A DNA stretch of 64,000 nucleotides from Pontiella agarivorans (lineage in GTDB: Bacteria; Verrucomicrobiota; Kiritimatiellia; Kiritimatiellales; Pontiellaceae). Numbering within the stretch: position 1 is the stretch's first letter; each line of letters starts with the position of its first letter. The position numbers and the translations under genes are program-made. A model generated the notes under the pieces. The model was not told the DNA's origin. It did no database searches and saw only the letters and a program-made list of their open reading frames with translations. The DNA lies in contig NZ_JARVCO010000002.1 of assembly GCF_034531395.1 (NCBI RefSeq), positions 62,001 to 126,000 of the forward strand. Direction: 5' to 3'. Below are positions 6,303 to 50,397 of this stretch, piece by piece.

Positions 6303-8021
6303 ATGAAAAAAAGTACATTTGCGGTTTTGATGGTTTTTGCGGCGCTGGTTGTGAGTGACGCGGAGGCCAAGAAGACAAAACACGGTTCGAAGGAGTACAC
6401 CGACCTGCCGCCGTATGAACGGGTTTCGGGGTTGGTGTGGGGCGGCCAGTTTATGGATCGTTTTGAACCGGTACCCGTTATGAGCCCTATGACCAGAGAT
6501 ACCTGGGGTGTTGATGCGGTCGTTCCGCGCGATATAACCAATGGAATCGAGGATCCCGACTGGTCGTATTGGGGCGGTAAGATCGTCAAAGGAGACGATG
6601 GGAAATATCATATGTTCCCGTGTCGCTGGTCGGAGGATAATCCGCGCGGACACCGTGCCTGGATGCATTCGCAAATTGTGCACGCGGTTTCTGAAAATCC
6701 GCTGGGTCCTTATAAGGTCATTGAACATATTGGCCCGGGGCATAATCCAAGCGTGTATCGGAAAGCTGATGGTTCTTATGTTGTGTATGCTTTCTGTCGA
6801 ACCGAAGGTCGTTCGCTGAATTATTACTATCAGGCAAAGACGCTGGAAGGCCCGTGGTCGATCAATGCCTATGAAGAAGATTTGCGCGCGCGTCCGGGGA
6901 CGTATCCCCATGCCTCGAACTGCGGCTTTGCTATGCGGGAAGACGGTTCATTTTTGAAGGTCGATAAAAAGGGAACCATGCATTTCAGTAAAACCGGAAC
7001 CTCCAAATGGTATGCGGTCGGAACGGGGCGGGTTTTTCCGCCCAAACTGAATCCGAATGACCGCTATGAAGATCCGGCCCTTTGGTACGACGGTATTCAG
7101 TATCATATGATTACACATAATTACTTGGCCTGGCAGGCCTACTATTTACGCTCAAAAGACGGGGTGCACTGGGTAAAGGATCCGGGACTGGCCTATGGCG
7201 ATGCAAACGTGGTGTATGAAGACGGTACGACGAATAACTGGTATCGCTTTGAGCGGGTTATGGTGCTGCAGGATGATCTCGGCCGAGCCGTGCAGATTAA
7301 CTTTGCAACACTGGATGTGAATAAGGATTCGGAACGGGGCAACGACAACCACAACTCCAAAAACGTGTGTATTCCGCTGACGGTCGGCCGACAGCTGGAG
7401 GTGTTGAATCGTGAGCCTATTGATGCAAAAACCACTCAGATTCGCGTGAAAGTGAAGGCGGAAAAGGGGTTTGATCCACATGTGGATATGGAGCTTGAAT
7501 CGCTCCGCTTCGGCGCGACGCAGGAAGTGGATTTCGGGCGCGGTTGCAAGGTCGTGAAAACAGAACCGTCGGGTCAGGATCTGATTCTGATTTTTGATGC
7601 CAAAGGAAATGGATTCAGGGCGGAAAATTTTGTCGGGAAACTGCTGGGGTTAACGACGGAAGGAAAATTGCTGTTCGGCTGGTCGCGTCTGCCGGGTGTA
7701 ACCTATATAGAACCGATCCTGTCGGCGGATGTTCCCGTCATTAAGAGCGGAAAATCCGGAACCACGATTCTGGTGGACGTAACCAATTTCGGTCAGGTTT
7801 CTTCCGATGATTCGGCGCGGTTGGTTGTGATGGTTGAGGGTAAAAATGTGGCCTCCCGCCCGCTTCCTTTGCTCAAGCCCTTTGAGGAGCAGAGCGTGAG
7901 TCTAAACACTTCCGAAACCTATGAATGGTCGGAAACGGTTCCGGTTACCACTCAGTTGATCCTGAACGGTCGTGTGCAGGAGTCATTTGAGTCAAAGGTT
8001 ACGGTCGGTTGCCAGCATTAA
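6303..8021 (+). CDS. GH43-like propeller glycosidase with C-terminal Ig-like domain
   Basis: A 572-residue secreted protein, paralogue of the one at 23. Signal peptide residues 1-22. Residues ~45-365 form the propeller: VVPRDITNGIEDPDWSYW, DDGKYHMFPCRWSE and the shared DNHNSK motif align with the first copy. Residues ~375-572 are an extra region with short beta-strands resembling a CARDB/NEW3-type Ig-like module (VTNFGQVSSDDSARLVV). That module is absent from the first copy. It likely acts as an exo-glycosidase in the periplasm or at the surface. The gap of 6 nt from the upstream sulfatase indicates an operon. Exact family (GH43, GH117 or uncatalogued) is open. Confidence 0.68.
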   Translation: MKKSTFAVLMVFAALVVSDAEAKKTKHGSKEYTDLPPYERVSGLVWGGQFMDRFEPVPVMSPMTRDTWGVDAVVPRDITNGIEDPDWSYWGGKIVKGDDGKYHMFPCRWSEDNPRGHRAWMHSQIVHAVSENPLGPYKVIEHIGPGHNPSVYRKADGSYVVYAFCRTEGRSLNYYYQAKTLEGPWSINAYEEDLRARPGTYPHASNCGFAMREDGSFLKVDKKGTMHFSKTGTSKWYAVGTGRVFPPKLNPNDRYEDPALWYDGIQYHMITHNYLAWQAYYLRSKDGVHWVKDPGLAYGDANVVYEDGTTNNWYRFERVMVLQDDLGRAVQINFATLDVNKDSERGNDNHNSKNVCIPLTVGRQLEVLNREPIDAKTTQIRVKVKAEKGFDPHVDMELESLRFGATQEVDFGRGCKVVKTEPSGQDLILIFDAKGNGFRAENFVGKLLGLTTEGKLLFGWSRLPGVTYIEPILSADVPVIKSGKSGTTILVDVTNFGQVSSDDSARLVVMVEGKNVASRPLPLLKPFEEQSVSLNTSETYEWSETVPVTTQLILNGRVQESFESKVTVGCQH

Positions 8022-12820: not shown

Positions 12821-13342
12821 ATGAAAATACAAACTGCAGTAATCCTGCTTTTGGGGGCGGTACTTGCGGGCGGTTCGAAAGCCGCCAGCTTCGTTACGGA
12901 TGGAAATGCACTGCGTAAAGCAGTTCCAGGAATGATTAAATCAACGCCGGTTCTGTTTTGCGGCGAACTGGATGGTGCGGTGTCGTGTTATACGCTGGAG
13001 GGGAAAAAGCTTTGGCGTAATCCTTCGCAATCGCCTGCAGTGCAGTTTTCATCCACGATGCTGAAGACGGTGCAGGCGGGTGCAAATCAGATGCCGGTGG
13101 TGGTGAAGGGGGCGGCCTGGAGTGCGATTCGGTTGGATAAAAAACATGTGCGATTAATCCTAATTGATCCCGGCTATCTTGATCCGCAGGAACGTCAGGT
13201 TGAAATTCGTTTTCAGCACAGGCAGCCGGTTAATGTGACCGATATTCTGACGAAGGAAACCTTTTCGGCTGAAGGGGGACGGCTGGGTTTAAGCGTGCCT
13301 GCGGGATCCATGCGGTTTATTGATTTGACGTATTCATATTGA
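12821..13342 (+). pseudogene. Internally deleted copy of the 13407 propeller protein
   Basis: The frame encodes 173 residues from the ATG at 12821, with a signal peptide. Residues 1-~73 match the start of the 13407 product and the remainder matches its last ~105 residues; the ~715 residues between are missing. At the DNA level 12954-13041 is identical to 13540-13627 (88 bp), and 13091-13132 is identical to 15831-15872. The join lies near 13037-13041, where both parents have a CAG-rich stretch, so a deletion after tandem duplication is the simplest explanation. The reading frame survived, so a small secreted beta-sandwich protein could still be made, but all of the predicted central domain is gone. 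No separate function can be assigned. Confidence 0.85.
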
Positions 13343-13406
13343 AAATACGGATCATTGAAAATGTTGTGTAACGGGGCCGAGGCCGCGTAATGAGATGGAG
13401 AATGAG

Positions 13407-16076
13407 ATGAAATTACGACTTACAGTCATATTGTTTACCCTTGCTGTTTTAGCAGGAGATGGGGATGCAGCCTCTTTTATAACCGGAGGCAATGCGTTGC
13501 GCAGTGCTGTTCCGGGCATTATTAAATCAACACCGGTTTTGTTTTGCGGCGAACTGGATGGTGCGGTGTCGTGTTATACGCTGGAGGGGAAAAAGCTTTG
13601 GCGTAATCCTTCGCAATCGCCTGCAGTTCTGTTTGAACTGGCTGCAGTGGATGTGGATAACGACGGGCGCGATGATCTGCTTTCGGCCAGCGGTGACGGA
13701 TCAATCACGTGCTGGAATGCGAACGGGACGTTGCGCTGGCGGTTTCGTGGGGATCGTAAGATTCGTTTTAACGAAGTGGCGGTGTTGAAGCGCGGAACGG
13801 ATCTGACAATTTTTGCCGGCGGCAATGACCGGATGGTTTATGCGCTGGACCGTAACGGCAAGCTGATCGATTCCCACGAGTTTCCCGGCGCGATCCGCAA
13901 GCTGGAAGTGGGCGACTTCAAAAAGGATGGCGAGCCGCTGTTGTTTGTGATGAGCATGAAGCACGATAAGTCCGGCTGGATCTCGTTCGGCTTTCATGAC
14001 CCGGACCATTTAGCAAAGGAGGTTGCGAGCCTTTCGCCCAGAAAACGGACGAAGCGCCTGAGCGGGATTATTACGGATCTGCGGGTGACGGATCTGGATC
14101 GCGATGGCCGCGACGACCTGATGGTCTTCATCAATGAAAGCCCGACGATGTGCGTCGTGAACGGAGATTTCGAAGAGATTGCCGGGTATGACACGAGCAA
14201 GGCAAAGGACAAGGAATTGCGGCGTTCCAAACAGCGGTATGCGCACACCAGCGGTATTTCCGTGGCGCCGGCACGTGATGAAATTCTGATGCAGTTCGGC
14301 CGTACTTTTTATTTGCTGGATGATGAAGGAAATCTGAAGGACTGGAGCGGCGATATATCGGCCCGTTTCCCGATGTCGGATTTTGTTTATCATCCTGCAG
14401 TGAATCGTCTGTTTGGTATTGGATCCGTTGCCGGGGATAATGGGGTCTATGAGTTTGACCTGCAAAAAGACGACTGGTGGAAAGACCATGTGCAGCCGCA
14501 GGGCCGTATTGCGGAGGTGAACCGGAATCTTGAAACATTATACAAACAGGTGGTTTCTTTTGTTCCGCCGGCCTACCAGAAACCGGCCGATAAACCGTGG
14601 GTCATGGGATACAACGGTGAAATACCGGATGATATCGCCAAGTTGAAGTTTAATGAAGTCGTGATGGTGAAACAGCAATCCTGGGGGGAAGATTATAACC
14701 GTGTGCCGATTGTTGAAGCCGTCGGAGCGGAGTTTGGCAATAAGCGTGATAAACGTAAGAAATATTCAGACACGCAGGAGGATCTGGTTCGGCAGGCCCG
14801 GGAATTTGAAAGCGAGGGCATGCCGTTTACGGTTTGGGCCGGGCATGGAAGTGATCCGTTTTATGTCAGTATTGATACGCTTGAAGCGGTTCTGGAAGCG
14901 GCTCCGTCCACCTGTTATGGCTTCATCTATGCTGAAATGGCGAATACGAAAGATCCGCGCATCCATTATTTTATTGATCAATATATGCCGCGACTGGCTG
15001 CCGCCTGCCGAAAACAAGGACGTGCTAAACTTTTTTTCCGCTATAAGCAGACCTTTTGGGCCACTACGGTGCACATGCATCCATGGTGCGATCTGTTCCT
15101 GTCCGGAAAATATGCGGATGTTCTTGCTCCGGCAACGGAGGACACTAATTCGACAACACAGGAACTCAATCTTTCCGGGCGTGTGGGCATGTTTGCCGGT
15201 GGTTATGTCAATGACTTTGCGATGCGCTTGATTGATGATAATCCGACCGGTTGGCGTCCGCTGGCTCCGGGGCGGCAGAAGACCATTTCACCCTTTCTAC
15301 GCAGCGGAGTGATGAGGGCGGCGTATGGCGCCCGTTATGGTGTGCTGTGGAATTTTAAAGGACATGACGGTCCGGGGCTGGAGCTGTTAATGGGCTTAAT
15401 GGGATCCGGTGTTCTGCCGCTGGCGGAGGCGGATGACCTGCTGTCGATCGGTTCCTGGCATCTGATGGATGAGATCCCGTACGAAATTGAAGAGCGGGCG
15501 CATGGGCTCGGTCATGACATCAGCCAATACCTGGAATCGGACTATGAACGCGTTATTTCCTGCTCTGAAGTGCACTGGGGCGGTGCGAGTGTGCCGGAAT
15601 ACGATTTTTCGAAGGTGCTGGGGGTGGACTACCGCTGGTTGAACTTTATGCCGGAGTTGCCGTACGGCATGATTCCCATTGCGCCGGTTGAATATGGAAA
15701 GCAGCTGAAACAAACGGGTACGCCTTATGTGGTCAGTGACTCCCAGAGCGGCTTTGTGGATGGACAGAAAATACCGGCAGCCCAGTTTGGACCCGCGATG
15801 CTTAGATCGGCACAGGCCGGTGCGGGCCGGATGCCGGTGGTGGTGAAGGGGGCGGCCTGGAGTGCGATTCGGCTGGATCAAACGCATGTGCGATTAATCC
15901 TGATTGATCCCGGCTATCTGGATCCGCAGGAACGTCAGGTTGAAATTCGTTTTCAGCACAGGCAGCCGGTTAATGTGACTGATATTCTGACGGCTGAAAC
16001 CTTTTCCGCTGAAGGTGATCGGGTGAGCCTGAGCGTGCCGGCGGGATCCATGCGGTTTATTGATCTGACGTACTAG
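13407..16076 (+). CDS. Secreted VCBS/FG-GAP propeller protein, possible lambda-carrageenase-like (GH150) enzyme
   Basis: An 889-residue protein. The ATG at 13407 is chosen because GGAG lies 6 nt upstream. A signal peptide (to GDGDA) is followed by residues ~35-340 with repeated calcium-type motifs (DVDNDGRDDLL, DLDRDGRDDLMV) and GSITCWNANG strands, which indicate an FG-GAP/VCBS or PQQ-like beta-propeller. Residues ~385-760 form a second, probably catalytic, domain with many Trp, Asp and Glu residues (VWAGHGSDPF, GFIYAEMANTKDP, HMHPWCDLFL). The last ~110 residues are a beta-sandwich. An N-terminal propeller joined to a larger catalytic part at ~900 residues is the described architecture of lambda-carrageenase; I cannot confirm homology without a search. 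A truncated duplicate lies immediately upstream. Confidence 0.5.
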   Translation: MKLRLTVILFTLAVLAGDGDAASFITGGNALRSAVPGIIKSTPVLFCGELDGAVSCYTLEGKKLWRNPSQSPAVLFELAAVDVDNDGRDDLLSASGDGSITCWNANGTLRWRFRGDRKIRFNEVAVLKRGTDLTIFAGGNDRMVYALDRNGKLIDSHEFPGAIRKLEVGDFKKDGEPLLFVMSMKHDKSGWISFGFHDPDHLAKEVASLSPRKRTKRLSGIITDLRVTDLDRDGRDDLMVFINESPTMCVVNGDFEEIAGYDTSKAKDKELRRSKQRYAHTSGISVAPARDEILMQFGRTFYLLDDEGNLKDWSGDISARFPMSDFVYHPAVNRLFGIGSVAGDNGVYEFDLQKDDWWKDHVQPQGRIAEVNRNLETLYKQVVSFVPPAYQKPADKPWVMGYNGEIPDDIAKLKFNEVVMVKQQSWGEDYNRVPIVEAVGAEFGNKRDKRKKYSDTQEDLVRQAREFESEGMPFTVWAGHGSDPFYVSIDTLEAVLEAAPSTCYGFIYAEMANTKDPRIHYFIDQYMPRLAAACRKQGRAKLFFRYKQTFWATTVHMHPWCDLFLSGKYADVLAPATEDTNSTTQELNLSGRVGMFAGGYVNDFAMRLIDDNPTGWRPLAPGRQKTISPFLRSGVMRAAYGARYGVLWNFKGHDGPGLELLMGLMGSGVLPLAEADDLLSIGSWHLMDEIPYEIEERAHGLGHDISQYLESDYERVISCSEVHWGGASVPEYDFSKVLGVDYRWLNFMPELPYGMIPIAPVEYGKQLKQTGTPYVVSDSQSGFVDGQKIPAAQFGPAMLRSAQAGAGRMPVVVKGAAWSAIRLDQTHVRLILIDPGYLDPQERQVEIRFQHRQPVNVTDILTAETFSAEGDRVSLSVPAGSMRFIDLTY

Positions 16077-16110: not shown

Positions 16111-17697
16111 ATGATGAAATATGGAATGATGAAGTTGATTGCCGGTGTGGCGGTGGCCTCGAGTTGTATGACGACCATGGGCGCCAAAAATAATCGGGTG
16201 CAAAACGATGGGCGGCCGAATATTCTGTGGATCACGATTGAGGACTGGTCGCCTGACCTGTCGTGCTACGGCACAAAGGGAATTCACACGCCGTATGTCG
16301 ACAGTCTGGCATCCAAAGGGATTCGCTATACCCGGGCGTTCACGACATCACCGGTTTGTTCCACTTCGCGTTCGGCGATGATGACCGGTTTTTACCAGAA
16401 CTATATCGGGGCCAATCAGCATCGTGAGCACAATAAGCAACCGCTTCCGTATGGCATTAAGCCGATTCCGAAGTTGTTTGAAGAGGCGGGATATTATACG
16501 GCGCTGTTGAGCTGGAAAACGGATTGTAACTTTACTCCGAACAAGCGAAATGAGCTGTTTATGGGCGAGGACTGGTCGGAACGCAAACCGGGGCAGCCGT
16601 TCTTTGCGCGGATCACCTTCGGGGGGACGCATCGATCCTGGAAGCGCGATCCGGTTCGTCCGATCAGTATCGATGAGGTTGAAATTCCACCATATTATGC
16701 GGACACGCCGTTCATCCGTCGCGACTGGGCCAACGGGCTGGAGCAGATGCAGCTGGTGGATCGTGAAGTCGGGCAGATTCTGGGACGATTGGATAAAGAA
16801 GGGCTTTCGGACAATACGATCGTATTCTTTATCGGCGATCACGGCCGGTGCCATATTCGCGGTAAACAGTTTCTTTATGACGGCGGTATACGGATTCCAA
16901 TGATTATGAGCTGGCCGGGGCATGTAGAGCCGGGTCAGGTGAATGATGATATGGTGATGTCGATCGACATCTGTGCAACACTTCTTGAAGCTGCGGGAAT
17001 TACGCCGCCGGTTCCACTGCACGGGAAAAGCCTGTTCAGCCAGGATGTTCGGGAACGGAAATATGTCTTTGCCGCCCGCGATAAAATGGACGAAACCCAT
17101 GATGCAATGCGTGCGATTCGGTCCCGGAAATATAAGCTGATTCACAATCTGATGCCGGAGCGCCCCTATCTGCAGTTCAACCGGTACAAAGAAGAGGCTT
17201 ATCCGCCGCTGGCCGAGATGAGTGTGCTGCACCTGAAGGGCAAACTGACACCCGAACAGGAACAGTTTTTTGCCGCCACCAAGCCGGAGTTTGAGTTGTT
17301 TGATCTGGAGAAAGATCCCTATGAATTGCACAACCGGGCCGATGATCCGGCCTATGCTTCGGTGAAAAAAGAACTGCTTGCTGAACTGAAGGCCTGGCGC
17401 GAGAGGGTCAATGATCAGGGCGTGACCGAGGAGTTTCGAGCAGAAGGGGTATTCCCGGAAAGCTGCCCGTTGCCGACCGTGGATGAATGGGTGGCAGCAA
17501 ATGAAGTGAAGTATGATTTCAATGTTTCCGGCTGGCCGGCCTGGTACCCGACCCGCACGTTGGAGGAGTGGGAAGCGGCGCGGGAAATCTGGATGCCCTG
17601 GGTATTCCGTGCTCCGACGGAGATCATGAAACGTCCTAACGTAATAAAAAAGGTCAAGCGCCGCGGCCGTAAGTCGAATCAATATCTGTCGATGTAA
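16111..17697 (+). CDS. S1 sulfatase with C-S-T-S-R signature
   Basis: About 528 residues. Either the ATG at 16111 or the one at 16114 could start it; AACGGAG precedes both. Signal peptide to about residue 24. Motifs ILWITIEDWSPDLSCYG and SAMMTGFYQNYIGANQHR place it in S1. In the signature, Thr replaces the usual Pro/Ala: C-S-T-S-R, catalytic Cys83. The same variant, with a following GAxxHR, recurs in a known bacterial S1 group (S1_8-like), so the enzyme is probably active. The metal-site motif is FFIGDHGR. The C-terminus is extended by about 50 residues beyond the usual DLEKDPYEL end and finishes RRGRKSNQY. Confidence 0.9.
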   Translation: MMKYGMMKLIAGVAVASSCMTTMGAKNNRVQNDGRPNILWITIEDWSPDLSCYGTKGIHTPYVDSLASKGIRYTRAFTTSPVCSTSRSAMMTGFYQNYIGANQHREHNKQPLPYGIKPIPKLFEEAGYYTALLSWKTDCNFTPNKRNELFMGEDWSERKPGQPFFARITFGGTHRSWKRDPVRPISIDEVEIPPYYADTPFIRRDWANGLEQMQLVDREVGQILGRLDKEGLSDNTIVFFIGDHGRCHIRGKQFLYDGGIRIPMIMSWPGHVEPGQVNDDMVMSIDICATLLEAAGITPPVPLHGKSLFSQDVRERKYVFAARDKMDETHDAMRAIRSRKYKLIHNLMPERPYLQFNRYKEEAYPPLAEMSVLHLKGKLTPEQEQFFAATKPEFELFDLEKDPYELHNRADDPAYASVKKELLAELKAWRERVNDQGVTEEFRAEGVFPESCPLPTVDEWVAANEVKYDFNVSGWPAWYPTRTLEEWEAAREIWMPWVFRAPTEIMKRPNVIKKVKRRGRKSNQYLSM

Positions 17698-41268: not shown

Positions 41269-41439
41269 TTTCCCCGTAATATCCCCAGTAGAACGAGTTT
41301 GAACGATTTGATAGCCTTTACCAGTAGCTGGAATGGAACTGCAGTTTAATCTGTTTCAGCCTTATGAGCGATGAACTGATGCTGATCAGTCTTTGTTTGA
41401 TAGATGAAGTCGGAAGCCTATTAAAGAAGGAGAGTGGAG

Positions 41440-44313
41440 ATGAAGAAGTGGACCGCACTATGTTTAACATGGGTCGCCGCCGTAGGGGTTCAGGCCAATT
41501 TGTTCAAAACTGGATGGACAAATCATGGTTCAAATGAAATGAACTACGACCATCTTGATGTCGGATGGAATACGAAAACCACTTGGGATACCAATGCAAC
41601 CGGTTTTGTGAATCTGGGGCCAACGGACAGTGCGACGGCTCAGTTTGGGCAGGTTTTCAGTGTGAATTCTTCTTCTGACACAGGCGATGTGGCGACGCTG
41701 AGCTTTGACTGGACGCCATCCGGTTCCCCCAATACAAACACGACACTGAAATATCAGTTGATCGGCTGGAATGAGGATAGTCCATTGCCGGCGGCAAGCA
41801 GCAACTTCTTCTATTCCATAAATTGGGGCGGAAGCAAAGTGGGAACATTGGGGGGGACCCATGAGCGGGTGGATCTGATCAATGGCGGTGCCGGAAGTAC
41901 TGCTGACAATCAGAACATGACGATGAATACCGTTACTGCAGATGCAGGCATTACGCAGAATTATTCCATTACATTTAATGTTAAGAATGCGGTTGCCGGA
42001 ATCTCCGACTTCAGTGACTACGAGTTTGTCGGTATCCGTTTCGGCATCGATGGCGCTGACAGTAATGCCGTGAACTCGGTTGTGGAAAACATCAGCCTCA
42101 CGCTGTCGAATTCTCCGCCGATTTCAACCGTTGGCGGGCAGTTTATTAATACTTCATTCACCGGAGTAGACTATGTTGACGGGGATCTTGCGGGGCAGGA
42201 TAACTGGGTGAACAATGCCAATGATGCTTCGGCTGCTTTTACCGTGAATACCGGGGGTAGTGGCTTTGCAGAAGGTTTGGCTGCGTCCGCAAAAACCAAT
42301 GGCGCTTCGGTCTACTGGAGTGAAGCAAATGAAAATACCGCGGGCGCGACATGGAGCGGTTCGGTTAACTTTATTGTGGCGGCAACCAATGCTCCAACTG
42401 TGGCCCGGTCCGGGGATGGCGCGCTGATTGCCGATTTTAATGCATCAGATGATTACCCGCTCTTCAGCTGGGGGGTAAGTTCCGATGTGGCCGGTTCGGA
42501 TCTGCTTGAAGCCCATCCGGTCAGTGGTTTCGCATATACAGATGATGCGCTGTTGAGAGCGTGGCTGGACGTGAGCAGCGGGGGGATCAGGTTTAACATT
42601 AACGGTCGGTTCTACAGCAGTGGCAATATACTCACCCTGTCTGGAAAAGATCTGAAATGGGCTCCGATGACGACCAATACCAACGAGACTCCGGACTTTG
42701 TGACTGAATTAATAGAATGTGACTGGATGATTCGTAAATCGACGGCCGCAAGCAGCTACAATGCTTCTCTTACAGTGACTGTGGGCACCAATGTCTATGA
42801 AGGGGTTGTTGAATATACCTACGATGATCCGGAAACGCTTTACAATGCTGAAGCCGCTAACTTTGTTATGCAGCATCTGGTTGATGCGGTTGATCTGCTG
42901 GATGTCTCTGTGGATGCGGTTTCGGTATCGCATACCAATGCAAGTCCGGTTCCGGTTTCGGCGCCGTATGATCTGGCGGCTACCACGGGGAACCTTGAGA
43001 TCAATTTGAGCTGGTTGACCCGGGGTGGAGAAGAGAGTGGCGGATTCAATGTTTATCGTTCATCGACCGGCATAGAACCCGGAGATTTTACGCTGCTCAC
43101 CAATCTCTCCGGGACAGCCTTTACCGATACTGACGGCCTGACAACGAAAACGACGTATATCTATAGGATAGCGGGTGTATTTCCTACCGGGGAAAGTGAA
43201 TATTCAGAGCTTGCTGTCTTTGCCTTGGCTCAATCGACTGTTCCGGGCCTGTTCTGGGGAGATGATGATGATTTACTCTCTGGAAATGTAGATCTGTCTC
43301 TGGGTGCGGCTTCAACATTGAACGGAATTGACCTGTATACCGGTGGCGGAGTTGATGGCTCCTTTGCTCCCGCGGTTTCGACCACCCCGACATCGGGCTC
43401 CTACAATACATCGGCCTGCCCGCTTCTTTATGGTTGGGTGCAGCTCGAGGAGGGCGAAGGAATTAACCAGATCAGGTTACAGGAGCATTCCTCAGGCGAT
43501 ATTCTGAGGTGGCGCGATAACGACGGTGATTCCACAACCAACGCCTCTTTGTTCTATGTCGAAGTGGAGACCGAGGTGGATGTTTCCGACGGCGTACTCA
43601 AAGTTCAATCCGGCGAATGGGGTAACAATACCCGCGTTGCTATCCGCAATAACGGGATTTGGTATGCCAGTGCCACCATTACAGATAACTCGATCCAGCT
43701 GATTGATCTGGCAACGGAAACCTGGGCGGTTTTCTCCGAACCGGCAGCCGGAGATGATTTCGTCGATGTAACCGGTGCGTCATTTGCTGTCCAGACGTTT
43801 GACCAGGTGGATGCGGTGGGGATTCTGCGTGGCAAAAATGCAGATACTGTGAACTCCGCTATCAGGTTATGGGACCTTGTCGTCGGCGATAAACCTTCGG
43901 CATTCCAAACCGTGATGTATGATTACGGCGTCTACAATGCCGATGCAGCCTTTACCAATGACTACGATGGTGACGGTATAAGCAATGGTGAGGAGTGGGG
44001 CCTGAACGGCAATCCTACGGATTCCGGCAGCGTCGGCATCACCGCACGGCGCAGGGGCGTAGATGGAAACGGAAACTTTCTGTTCATTCATCCGCGTTTG
44101 AAAGCTGAACCACGTCCGATTTATAATATTGTGGCGGATGATAATTTGGTCATTGCTCCGGACTTCTCATTGCAAACCGAGGGCGTGGACTATACCCGTA
44201 CCTCAGGCGGACAGTGGGTAACCAACAATTGGGCGGCGGACTTTGAAGCGGTTACGAATGCTTTCCCCTTACAGTCCGTGGAGTTCTTCAAACTTGAGGT
44301 TACCGAGCCTTAA
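41440..44313 (+). CDS. Large modular secreted protein with FN3 domain and shared terminal modules
   Basis: A 957-residue protein; ATG at 41440 with AAGGAG 7 nt upstream, signal peptide to VQANL. Residues ~20-215 are a beta-sandwich homologous to the N-terminus of the 24859 protein. Residues ~230-500 are a long beta-rich region (FINTSFTGVDYVDG to ANFVMQHL). A fibronectin type III domain spans ~510-595 (APYDLAATTGNLEINLSW). A further beta domain spans ~605-820 (LFWGDDDDLLSGNVDLSL). The C-terminus has a calcium-type DYDGDGISNGEEWG stretch, an NPT motif and ends FFKLEVTEP. No catalytic motif is recognised. It may be a surface glycan-binding or scaffold protein; its function is unknown. Confidence 0.7.
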   Translation: MKKWTALCLTWVAAVGVQANLFKTGWTNHGSNEMNYDHLDVGWNTKTTWDTNATGFVNLGPTDSATAQFGQVFSVNSSSDTGDVATLSFDWTPSGSPNTNTTLKYQLIGWNEDSPLPAASSNFFYSINWGGSKVGTLGGTHERVDLINGGAGSTADNQNMTMNTVTADAGITQNYSITFNVKNAVAGISDFSDYEFVGIRFGIDGADSNAVNSVVENISLTLSNSPPISTVGGQFINTSFTGVDYVDGDLAGQDNWVNNANDASAAFTVNTGGSGFAEGLAASAKTNGASVYWSEANENTAGATWSGSVNFIVAATNAPTVARSGDGALIADFNASDDYPLFSWGVSSDVAGSDLLEAHPVSGFAYTDDALLRAWLDVSSGGIRFNINGRFYSSGNILTLSGKDLKWAPMTTNTNETPDFVTELIECDWMIRKSTAASSYNASLTVTVGTNVYEGVVEYTYDDPETLYNAEAANFVMQHLVDAVDLLDVSVDAVSVSHTNASPVPVSAPYDLAATTGNLEINLSWLTRGGEESGGFNVYRSSTGIEPGDFTLLTNLSGTAFTDTDGLTTKTTYIYRIAGVFPTGESEYSELAVFALAQSTVPGLFWGDDDDLLSGNVDLSLGAASTLNGIDLYTGGGVDGSFAPAVSTTPTSGSYNTSACPLLYGWVQLEEGEGINQIRLQEHSSGDILRWRDNDGDSTTNASLFYVEVETEVDVSDGVLKVQSGEWGNNTRVAIRNNGIWYASATITDNSIQLIDLATETWAVFSEPAAGDDFVDVTGASFAVQTFDQVDAVGILRGKNADTVNSAIRLWDLVVGDKPSAFQTVMYDYGVYNADAAFTNDYDGDGISNGEEWGLNGNPTDSGSVGITARRRGVDGNGNFLFIHPRLKAEPRPIYNIVADDNLVIAPDFSLQTEGVDYTRTSGGQWVTNNWAADFEAVTNAFPLQSVEFFKLEVTEP

Positions 44314-48838: not shown

Positions 48839-48930
48839 ATCTAAGCGAGCAAAAATGCTCTTTAAATCCGTAGAAAAGCTGGGAAAAGAAGGTGAGGCGA
48901 TCGTCTTCACAGAAGGAATATAGAGAAGCT

Positions 48931-50397
48931 ATGAACAGAAGAGACTACGCAAAAATGATGGCACTCGGTGTGGCTTCCGTTGCAGGAAGCTCATTGGCAG
49001 GAAAAGCCACGCGACCCAACCTGCTGATTATTCATACGGATGAGCACAACTTCCGTACATTGGGGTGCTATCGCAATTTGCTGCGTGAAGATCAGGCTTT
49101 TGTTTGGGGTAAGGGGGTGAAAGTTGATACGCCGCATATTGACCGCATTGCGAATGAAGGAGCAATCTGCATGAACTATTATGCTGCGTCGCCGGTTTGC
49201 TCTCCATCGCGTGCATCGCTTATGTCGGGCCAGTATCCAATCACGACCGGGACGTGGAAAAACGGTATTCCAATGAAAGATGAAGTGGTGACGTTTGCCG
49301 AAGTGCTGCGCCGTGAAGGCTATGCCACGTCCTACTTGGGTAAGTGGCACCTCGACGGCAAAGGCCATCCGCAGTTTGCGCCGCAGCGCCAGTTCGGCTG
49401 GGCGGATAACCGTTTTATGTGGAACGGAGGGCATTGGAAAAAAATGGCGCAGAATGCGGATGGTTCACCGCGGATCGGAGCCGTCAATCACAAAGGAAAG
49501 CCGACCGGCAAGGTAGACGGCGCGGATGAAGAATCATTTACGACCGACTGGCTCACAAACCGCTCACTTGAAATTCTGGAGCGGGATTATCAGCAACCCT
49601 TCTGTCTCATGGTTTCCATTCCGGATCCGCACAGCCCGAATACGGTCCGTAAACCCTACGACACGCTGTTTGATAATCTGGCCTTTGAGCCGCCGCGTAC
49701 ACGGAAGAGGATGCCGGCGGGGACGCTTCCCAGGTGGCGTTCTTCTGAAAATAAGAACGGGGGAAAAGTTTTTGATCCTAAGCAGATGAGCGGTTATTTC
49801 GGGATGGTGAAATGCATTGATGACAATGTCGGACGGCTGCTGAATTTTCTCGAAGAGAAAGGAATTGCCGACAACACCGTGGTGGTCTTTACCTCCGACC
49901 ATGGTGATATGCTTTATGAACATGATCAGATTAATAAAGGACAGCCTTTTGATGGTTCCTCCCGTATTCCTTTTGTGATCCGCTATCCGAAAAAAATAGC
50001 GGCGGGCAAGGTTATTCATAAGGCCTATAATAACACTGATTTTGCACCGACCATACTGGGCCTGATGGGGGCATCATCTCTGCCGAATGCACAGGGGTCC
50101 GATTGTTCGGCGGATTTGTTAAGCACGGATCAGGAAATTGCTGACGACCGCATTTCCTATATGGCGGAAGCCAATGGGTTGTGGGTGGCAACCGTCAGCC
50201 GGAAACATAAACTGATCTATTCCTCGAAAGGTGAACCGTTCCTGTTCGACCTCGAAAAGGATCCGGACGAGTTAGTTAACTTTTATGCCGATCCTGCATA
50301 CAAGACCGTCCTGAAAACGATGCATGATGCTCTGGTGAAACAGATGACTATTGTACAGGGGCCGGAAAGTAAAAAGACAACCGTCCCGGCGATTTAA
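48931..50397 (+). CDS. S1 sulfatase with Tat leader
   Basis: A 488-residue sulfatase. ATG at 48931 is preferred over an upstream in-frame start at 48892 because it begins MNRRDYAKMMALGVAS, a twin-arginine leader like that of the 36628 protein. Motifs: LLIIHTDEHNFRTLGCY, C-S-P-S-R with Cys90, SLMSGQYPITTG, GKWHLDG and FTSDHGDML. A 25-residue insertion sits between the first metal motif and the signature. Most other sulfatases here have Sec-type leaders, so this one is probably exported already folded. A ribosome site overlaps AGAGAAG. Confidence 0.92.
   Translation: MNRRDYAKMMALGVASVAGSSLAGKATRPNLLIIHTDEHNFRTLGCYRNLLREDQAFVWGKGVKVDTPHIDRIANEGAICMNYYAASPVCSPSRASLMSGQYPITTGTWKNGIPMKDEVVTFAEVLRREGYATSYLGKWHLDGKGHPQFAPQRQFGWADNRFMWNGGHWKKMAQNADGSPRIGAVNHKGKPTGKVDGADEESFTTDWLTNRSLEILERDYQQPFCLMVSIPDPHSPNTVRKPYDTLFDNLAFEPPRTRKRMPAGTLPRWRSSENKNGGKVFDPKQMSGYFGMVKCIDDNVGRLLNFLEEKGIADNTVVVFTSDHGDMLYEHDQINKGQPFDGSSRIPFVIRYPKKIAAGKVIHKAYNNTDFAPTILGLMGASSLPNAQGSDCSADLLSTDQEIADDRISYMAEANGLWVATVSRKHKLIYSSKGEPFLFDLEKDPDELVNFYADPAYKTVLKTMHDALVKQMTIVQGPESKKTTVPAI

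Follow-up and report, generated by a model that had tools for sequence, protein, structure and literature searches.

A putative secreted GH150 lambda-carrageenase of Pontiella agarivorans and the predicted likeness of its catalytic core to GH98

Described GH150 enzymes and their hosts

GH150B of P. distincta U2A (EU511_08535) depolymerises lambda-carrageenan, not kappa- or iota-carrageenan, releases incompletely sulfated products and has been described as 26% identical to CglA (PMC12549532). In that 2025 study of the lambda pathway the GH150 enzyme was not crystallised; a conserved surface patch was proposed and no catalytic residues were named (PMC12549532). In P. carrageenovora, PC2016_RS20335 is the second GH150 of the published PUL 8 (PMC6262041), with which the neighbourhood observed here agrees, the gene being adjoined by two GH110-type genes, one GH2 and two sulfatases. 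PC2016_RS20335 is 24% identical to CglA of the same species (PCAR9_p0052). The gene order GH150B-GH110-GH110 is common to its locus and that of U2A (EU511_08535/08540/08545, there GH150B-GH110B-GH110A); that the U2A enzyme is its counterpart rests on this synteny and on the published description.

Pontiella agarivorans NLcol2 is described as an anaerobe growing on agar, agarose and a carrageenan (PMC10880615). According to the main text of that paper, the growth tests comprised agar, agarose, one carrageenan (iota, by the genome discussion) and fucoidan; growth on lambda-carrageenan is not reported and neither GH150 nor lambda-carrageenan is mentioned in that text (PMC10880615). No GH150 enzyme of the Kiritimatiellota with measured activity was found in the literature.

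Gene model and domain architecture

The window analysed is a stretch of 64,000 nucleotides of the P. agarivorans genome (contig NZ_JARVCO010000002.1, positions 62,001 to 126,000); the GH150 gene, its tandem copy and the two sulfatase genes described below lie on its forward strand. An unbroken open reading frame extends from 13395 to 16076, in which the ATG at 13395 is the mechanical opening of the frame. A start at 13407 is better, because it is closely preceded by a GGAG motif and followed by a clean signal peptide, MKLRLTVILFTLAVLAGDGDA, which has no lipobox Cys. From this start (13407-16076) the protein counts 889 amino acids. Residue numbers in this text are counted from 13395 and are lowered by four for the start at 13407.

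The protein opens with a Sec-type signal peptide (13407-13469), modelled as a low-confidence helix over residues 2-21. It is followed by a seven-bladed beta-propeller (residues 25-360, 13467-14474), a predicted catalytic beta/alpha barrel (residues 391-775, 14565-15719) and a C-terminal beta-sandwich (residues 776-893, 15720-16073). The full-length AlphaFold model, with a mean pLDDT of 86.8, displays the propeller, an eight-stranded beta/alpha barrel and the beta-sandwich. In the propeller, Pfam recognised FG-GAP_3 repeats, and two DxDxDG-type motifs are present at D86 and D233. By VIA, its fold (residues 25 to about 360) resembles that of WD40 proteins, for example WDR5 and RACK1, with Z scores of 26-27.

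Family membership

Three Pfam models of lambda-carrageenase domains matched the protein, each far above the curated cut-off of about 27 bits: CGLA_M in the barrel (residues 445-772, E = 5.2e-55, 187.6 bits), Beta-prop_CGLA in the propeller (residues 53-333, E = 2.2e-20, 73.8 bits) and CGLA_C in the sandwich (residues 820-891, E = 7.3e-20, 71.3 bits). NCBIfam held no model for the protein, and a phmmer search against the PDB returned propeller matches only, without a solved relative of the catalytic domain by sequence. Compared with 55 relatives, the protein has kept every residue that is invariant in GH150, among them H484, E514, K551, W555, E582, R596, D615, N616 and R621. H484 (14844-14846) is part of a loop that follows barrel strand 3 and has the invariant sequence W-x-G-H-G-x-D-P. 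By sequence, the window protein is thus a bona fide member of GH150.

These results bear out the original prediction in its main points, a lambda-carrageenase of GH150 type built from a signal, an FG-GAP-type propeller, a central domain and a C-terminal beta-sandwich; the HMM search that it had proposed gave all three models over cut-off. Its central domain, which had not been identified there with confidence, does have a name, since Pfam assigns it to CGLA_M. The word divergent holds relative to CglA, to which the protein is about 25% identical, and fails within the clade of GH150B enzymes, where identity to PC2016_RS20335 is 43-45% over the full length.

Position among the GH150 clades

A tree of 79 proteins was built by a quick method with SH-aLRT supports and no bootstrap. 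In it the window protein was placed in a clade of ten members (SH-aLRT 99) together with PC2016_RS20335 of P. carrageenovora and proteins of P. sulfatireligans, Maribacter, Colwellia and Carboxylicivirga. This GH150B clade was separate from a large CglA clade, and long branches divided the GH150 clades. A third clade of five members came from planctomycete, verrucomicrobial and Kiritimatiellae MAGs, and the placement of one very divergent MAG protein was unsure. With CglA (GH150A) the window protein has the Pfam family, the domains and the invariant residues in common. It differs in clade, and the genome carries six CglA-type paralogs at other loci; going by sequence and tree, it is not a CglA ortholog.

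The likeness to GH150B of U2A and PC2016_RS20335 is closer and includes homology over the full length, the three-domain architecture, the clade and an S1_8 sulfatase as neighbour. Unlike those genes, the window gene belongs to a Kiritimatiellota host, has no GH110 and GH2 directly adjacent, lies in a mixed cluster of sulfatase and GH genes and is accompanied by a deleted tandem copy.

Searching the P. agarivorans genome with the CGLA_M profile gave eight GH150 loci, six of them of CglA type with scores of about 560-625 bits and two with about 190 bits. The latter two are the window gene and a paralog with 65% identity on another contig (C12). GH150 genes are also numerous in P. sulfatireligans, with 11 matches, so that anaerobic sediment bacteria may be under-counted as lambda-carrageenan degraders.

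Predicted fold of the catalytic half and its likeness to GH98

Since the VIA list of the whole-protein model was filled by propeller matches, the catalytic half was folded separately (pLDDT 88.6). GH98 enzymes had already appeared amid the propeller matches in the Foldseek search of the whole protein. With the catalytic half, the Foldseek search that the original prediction had proposed for this region recovered a glycanase fold with GH98 on top: the first 24 rows were all GH98 (E from 3e-12 to 1e-7). By VIA, the first 21 rows were all GH98 as well, with Z scores of 20.3-16.1 over 379-400 residues, the next fold following at 14.4. The predicted barrel and C-terminal sandwich, both of the GH98 type, overlay those of Sp4GH98, Sp3GH98, RgGH98 and BoGH98 with Z scores of 16-20. 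GH98 differs in that identity is about 10% and in that the N-terminal propeller is a feature of GH150.

Profile comparison of GH150 with GH98 and GH98-like proteins by hhalign gave a probability of 87-92% over about 400 columns, against 0.9% for GH2, 0% for GH110 and 6.7% for GH42 as controls. A first, small GH98 profile had given only 19%. The higher values were reached once GH98 sequences had been added, the range lengthened and the alignment method changed, so the support from sequence depends on the alignment. With E values allowed up to 10, the 56 GH150 catalytic halves gave no match to the Pfam model of GH98 (Glyco_hydro_98M), and membership of GH98 is therefore not claimed.

The structure model suggests that the GH150 catalytic core is common with that of the GH98 blood-group-antigen endo-beta-1,4-galactosidases. 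The GH98 galactosidases likewise cut a beta-1,4-galactosidic bond, and the GH98 group also includes an endo-xylanase. Among the CC-licensed papers searched, none naming GH98 together with GH150 was found. By itself the gene is an ordinary find; the GH98 kinship of GH150 seems to be the new part.

Predicted catalytic residues

The GH98 acid corresponds to E411 in the R. gnavus enzyme and to the Glu of Y-C-E-Q-F in that of B. ovatus, a position occupied by Ala in the E361A structure. E514 of the window protein (14934-14936), located just after barrel strand 4 in the same place as the GH98 acid, was aligned by hhalign with E361 of BoGH98. The catalytic Asp of GH98, D467 in BoGH98, is found in a G-I-R-F-D stretch 106 residues past the acid. 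D615 (15237-15239), in an R-x-x-x-D-N motif, follows E514 by 101 residues, and hhalign placed the GH98 Asp one or two residues off D615, in the corresponding stretch. With the most divergent member (P0010) included, E514, E582 and D615 were the only invariant acids of the barrel. E582 (15138-15140), at the end of barrel strand 6, is an alternative candidate for the base or a possible residue of the -1 subsite.

GH98 enzymes invert, and because of the likeness to GH98 we infer the same for GH150. The reaction would be a single displacement as in GH98. E514 would probably serve as general acid, and the base that activates the water molecule would be D615 or, with lower probability, E582. That GH150 and GH98 form one superfamily with a common barrel, sandwich and general acid, so that GH150 would invert by means of E514 and either D615 or E582, appears reasonably likely on the combined fold and profile comparisons. 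No text consulted assigned these residues a catalytic role in the family. If true, the kinship gives a concrete mechanistic hypothesis for GH150.

Gene neighbourhood

The next gene downstream, at 16111-17697, encodes an S1_8-type sulfatase. The five structures that it matched best were S1_8A (9bb9, E = 5e-103), S1_8B and S1_8C from the lambda-carrageenan locus of U2A, with E values up to 2e-55. An S1_30-like sulfatase is encoded at 48892-50397; relatives with 86% and 59% identity adjoin the second GH150B gene, on contig C12, and relatives with about 50% identity adjoin GH150B-clade genes in Maribacter and in Pontiellaceae B12227. Altogether 13 reading frames of the window match Pfam Sulfatase, and GH29, GH2, GH42-like, GH127 and heparinase II/III-type proteins are encoded as well, in agreement with the predicted setting among sulfatases, GH2 and GH127. 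No GH110 was found in the window; of the four in the genome, two are on this contig outside the window and two on a different contig. GH2- and GH110-type genes are both carried by the second GH150B locus on C12. For that reason this locus, rather than the window, looks the closer match to the published lambda locus.

Two further proteins of the window, encoded at 6303-8021 (572 aa) and 41434-44313 (959 aa), had no Pfam match at 1e-5. The former had no PDB relative, and in P. sulfatireligans a homolog of it with 47% identity lies close to the GH150B gene.

Deleted tandem copy upstream

A reading frame of 173 aa (12821-13342), some 65 bases ahead of the intact gene, was recognised by comparison with that gene as an internally deleted tandem GH150 copy lacking the catalytic domain. 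Over 78 residues, its signal peptide and first blade are 78% identical to the intact protein; they are fused in frame to the last approximately 100 residues, the CGLA_C part (85% identical). At the nucleotide level identity to the intact gene is patchy and includes one stretch of almost 100 bases without a mismatch. The joint falls at a short homology. This copy was found in no other of the 28 genomes of the genus that were searched. From these sequence features, 12821-13342 looks like an internal deletion within a tandem duplicate. An error of the short-read MEGAHIT assembly is a possible origin too, and a less likely one because the joint sequence is unique.

Proposed function and alternative readings

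The gene at 13407-16076 is best explained as encoding a secreted GH150 lambda-carrageenase, to which we assign a probability of roughly 85%. Substrate and endo mode are inferred from the relatives. As a secreted endo-hydrolase of the GH150B clade, the protein would most likely cut lambda-carrageenan at its beta-1,4 bonds. Like the U2A enzyme, it may do so where the chain is incompletely sulfated. Even-numbered neo-oligosaccharides would be the products, and these would then be trimmed by neighbouring S1_8-type sulfatases and by GH2/GH110 enzymes from other loci of the genome.

A GH150-fold enzyme for another sulfated galactan, for instance a carrageenan that is hybrid, undersulfated or contains 3,6-anhydro units instead of lambda proper, was considered in view of the GH127 in the cluster, a family that serves for 3,6-anhydro-galactose in published kappa-type pathways. 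The incompletely sulfated products of U2A GH150B (PMC12549532) fit such a substrate too, as do the eight GH150 genes of the genome, seemingly beyond the needs of a single substrate. This is nevertheless unlikely, given that the closest enzyme with data, U2A GH150B, is inactive on kappa- and iota-carrageenan (PMC12549532) and that the lambda locus contains sulfatases of the S1_8 type, to which the product of the adjacent gene belongs.

Decay of the window gene into an inactive or binding-only paralog, along the lines of the truncated copy some 65 bases upstream, is very improbable: the reading frame is unbroken, no residue that is invariant across the 55 relatives has been lost and the structure model is confident, even if a second GH150B paralog (65% identity) is present beside GH2 and GH110 genes. 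The original prediction had also allowed for a new enzyme class, an idea to which the identity of only 25% to CglA and the long branches of the GH150 clades lend some substance. It is contradicted by the three GH150 Pfam models matched over cut-off and by the grouping with a clade that contains a characterised member, and we regard it as the least probable of all.

Other GH150 proteins

Several observations were made on GH150 proteins outside the window. The members of the five-member uncharacterised clade, L050, L052 and L053 among them, are about 30% identical to the window protein. In Maribacter (L048 and L049), a GH150B-clade gene is directly followed by a CglA-type gene; that of M. vaceletii is similar in size to the characterised OUC-CglA. 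In P. agarivorans, CglA-type GH150 genes are closely paired at G000:C12:1169000-1177000 and G000:C6:2000-15200, and two CglA-type reading frames of C12 (1281 and 1330 aa) have long C-terminal extensions.

The proteins L034 (G005:C3) and L026 (G028:C208) are long and combine a GH150-like propeller and barrel with an extra C-terminal part; several reading frames of this type, of about 1300-1570 aa, were seen. In both, Arg replaces the predicted acid E514 (M-A-R-T-K), and K551, E582 and D615 are retained. They possibly represent a separate, catalytically altered subfamily.
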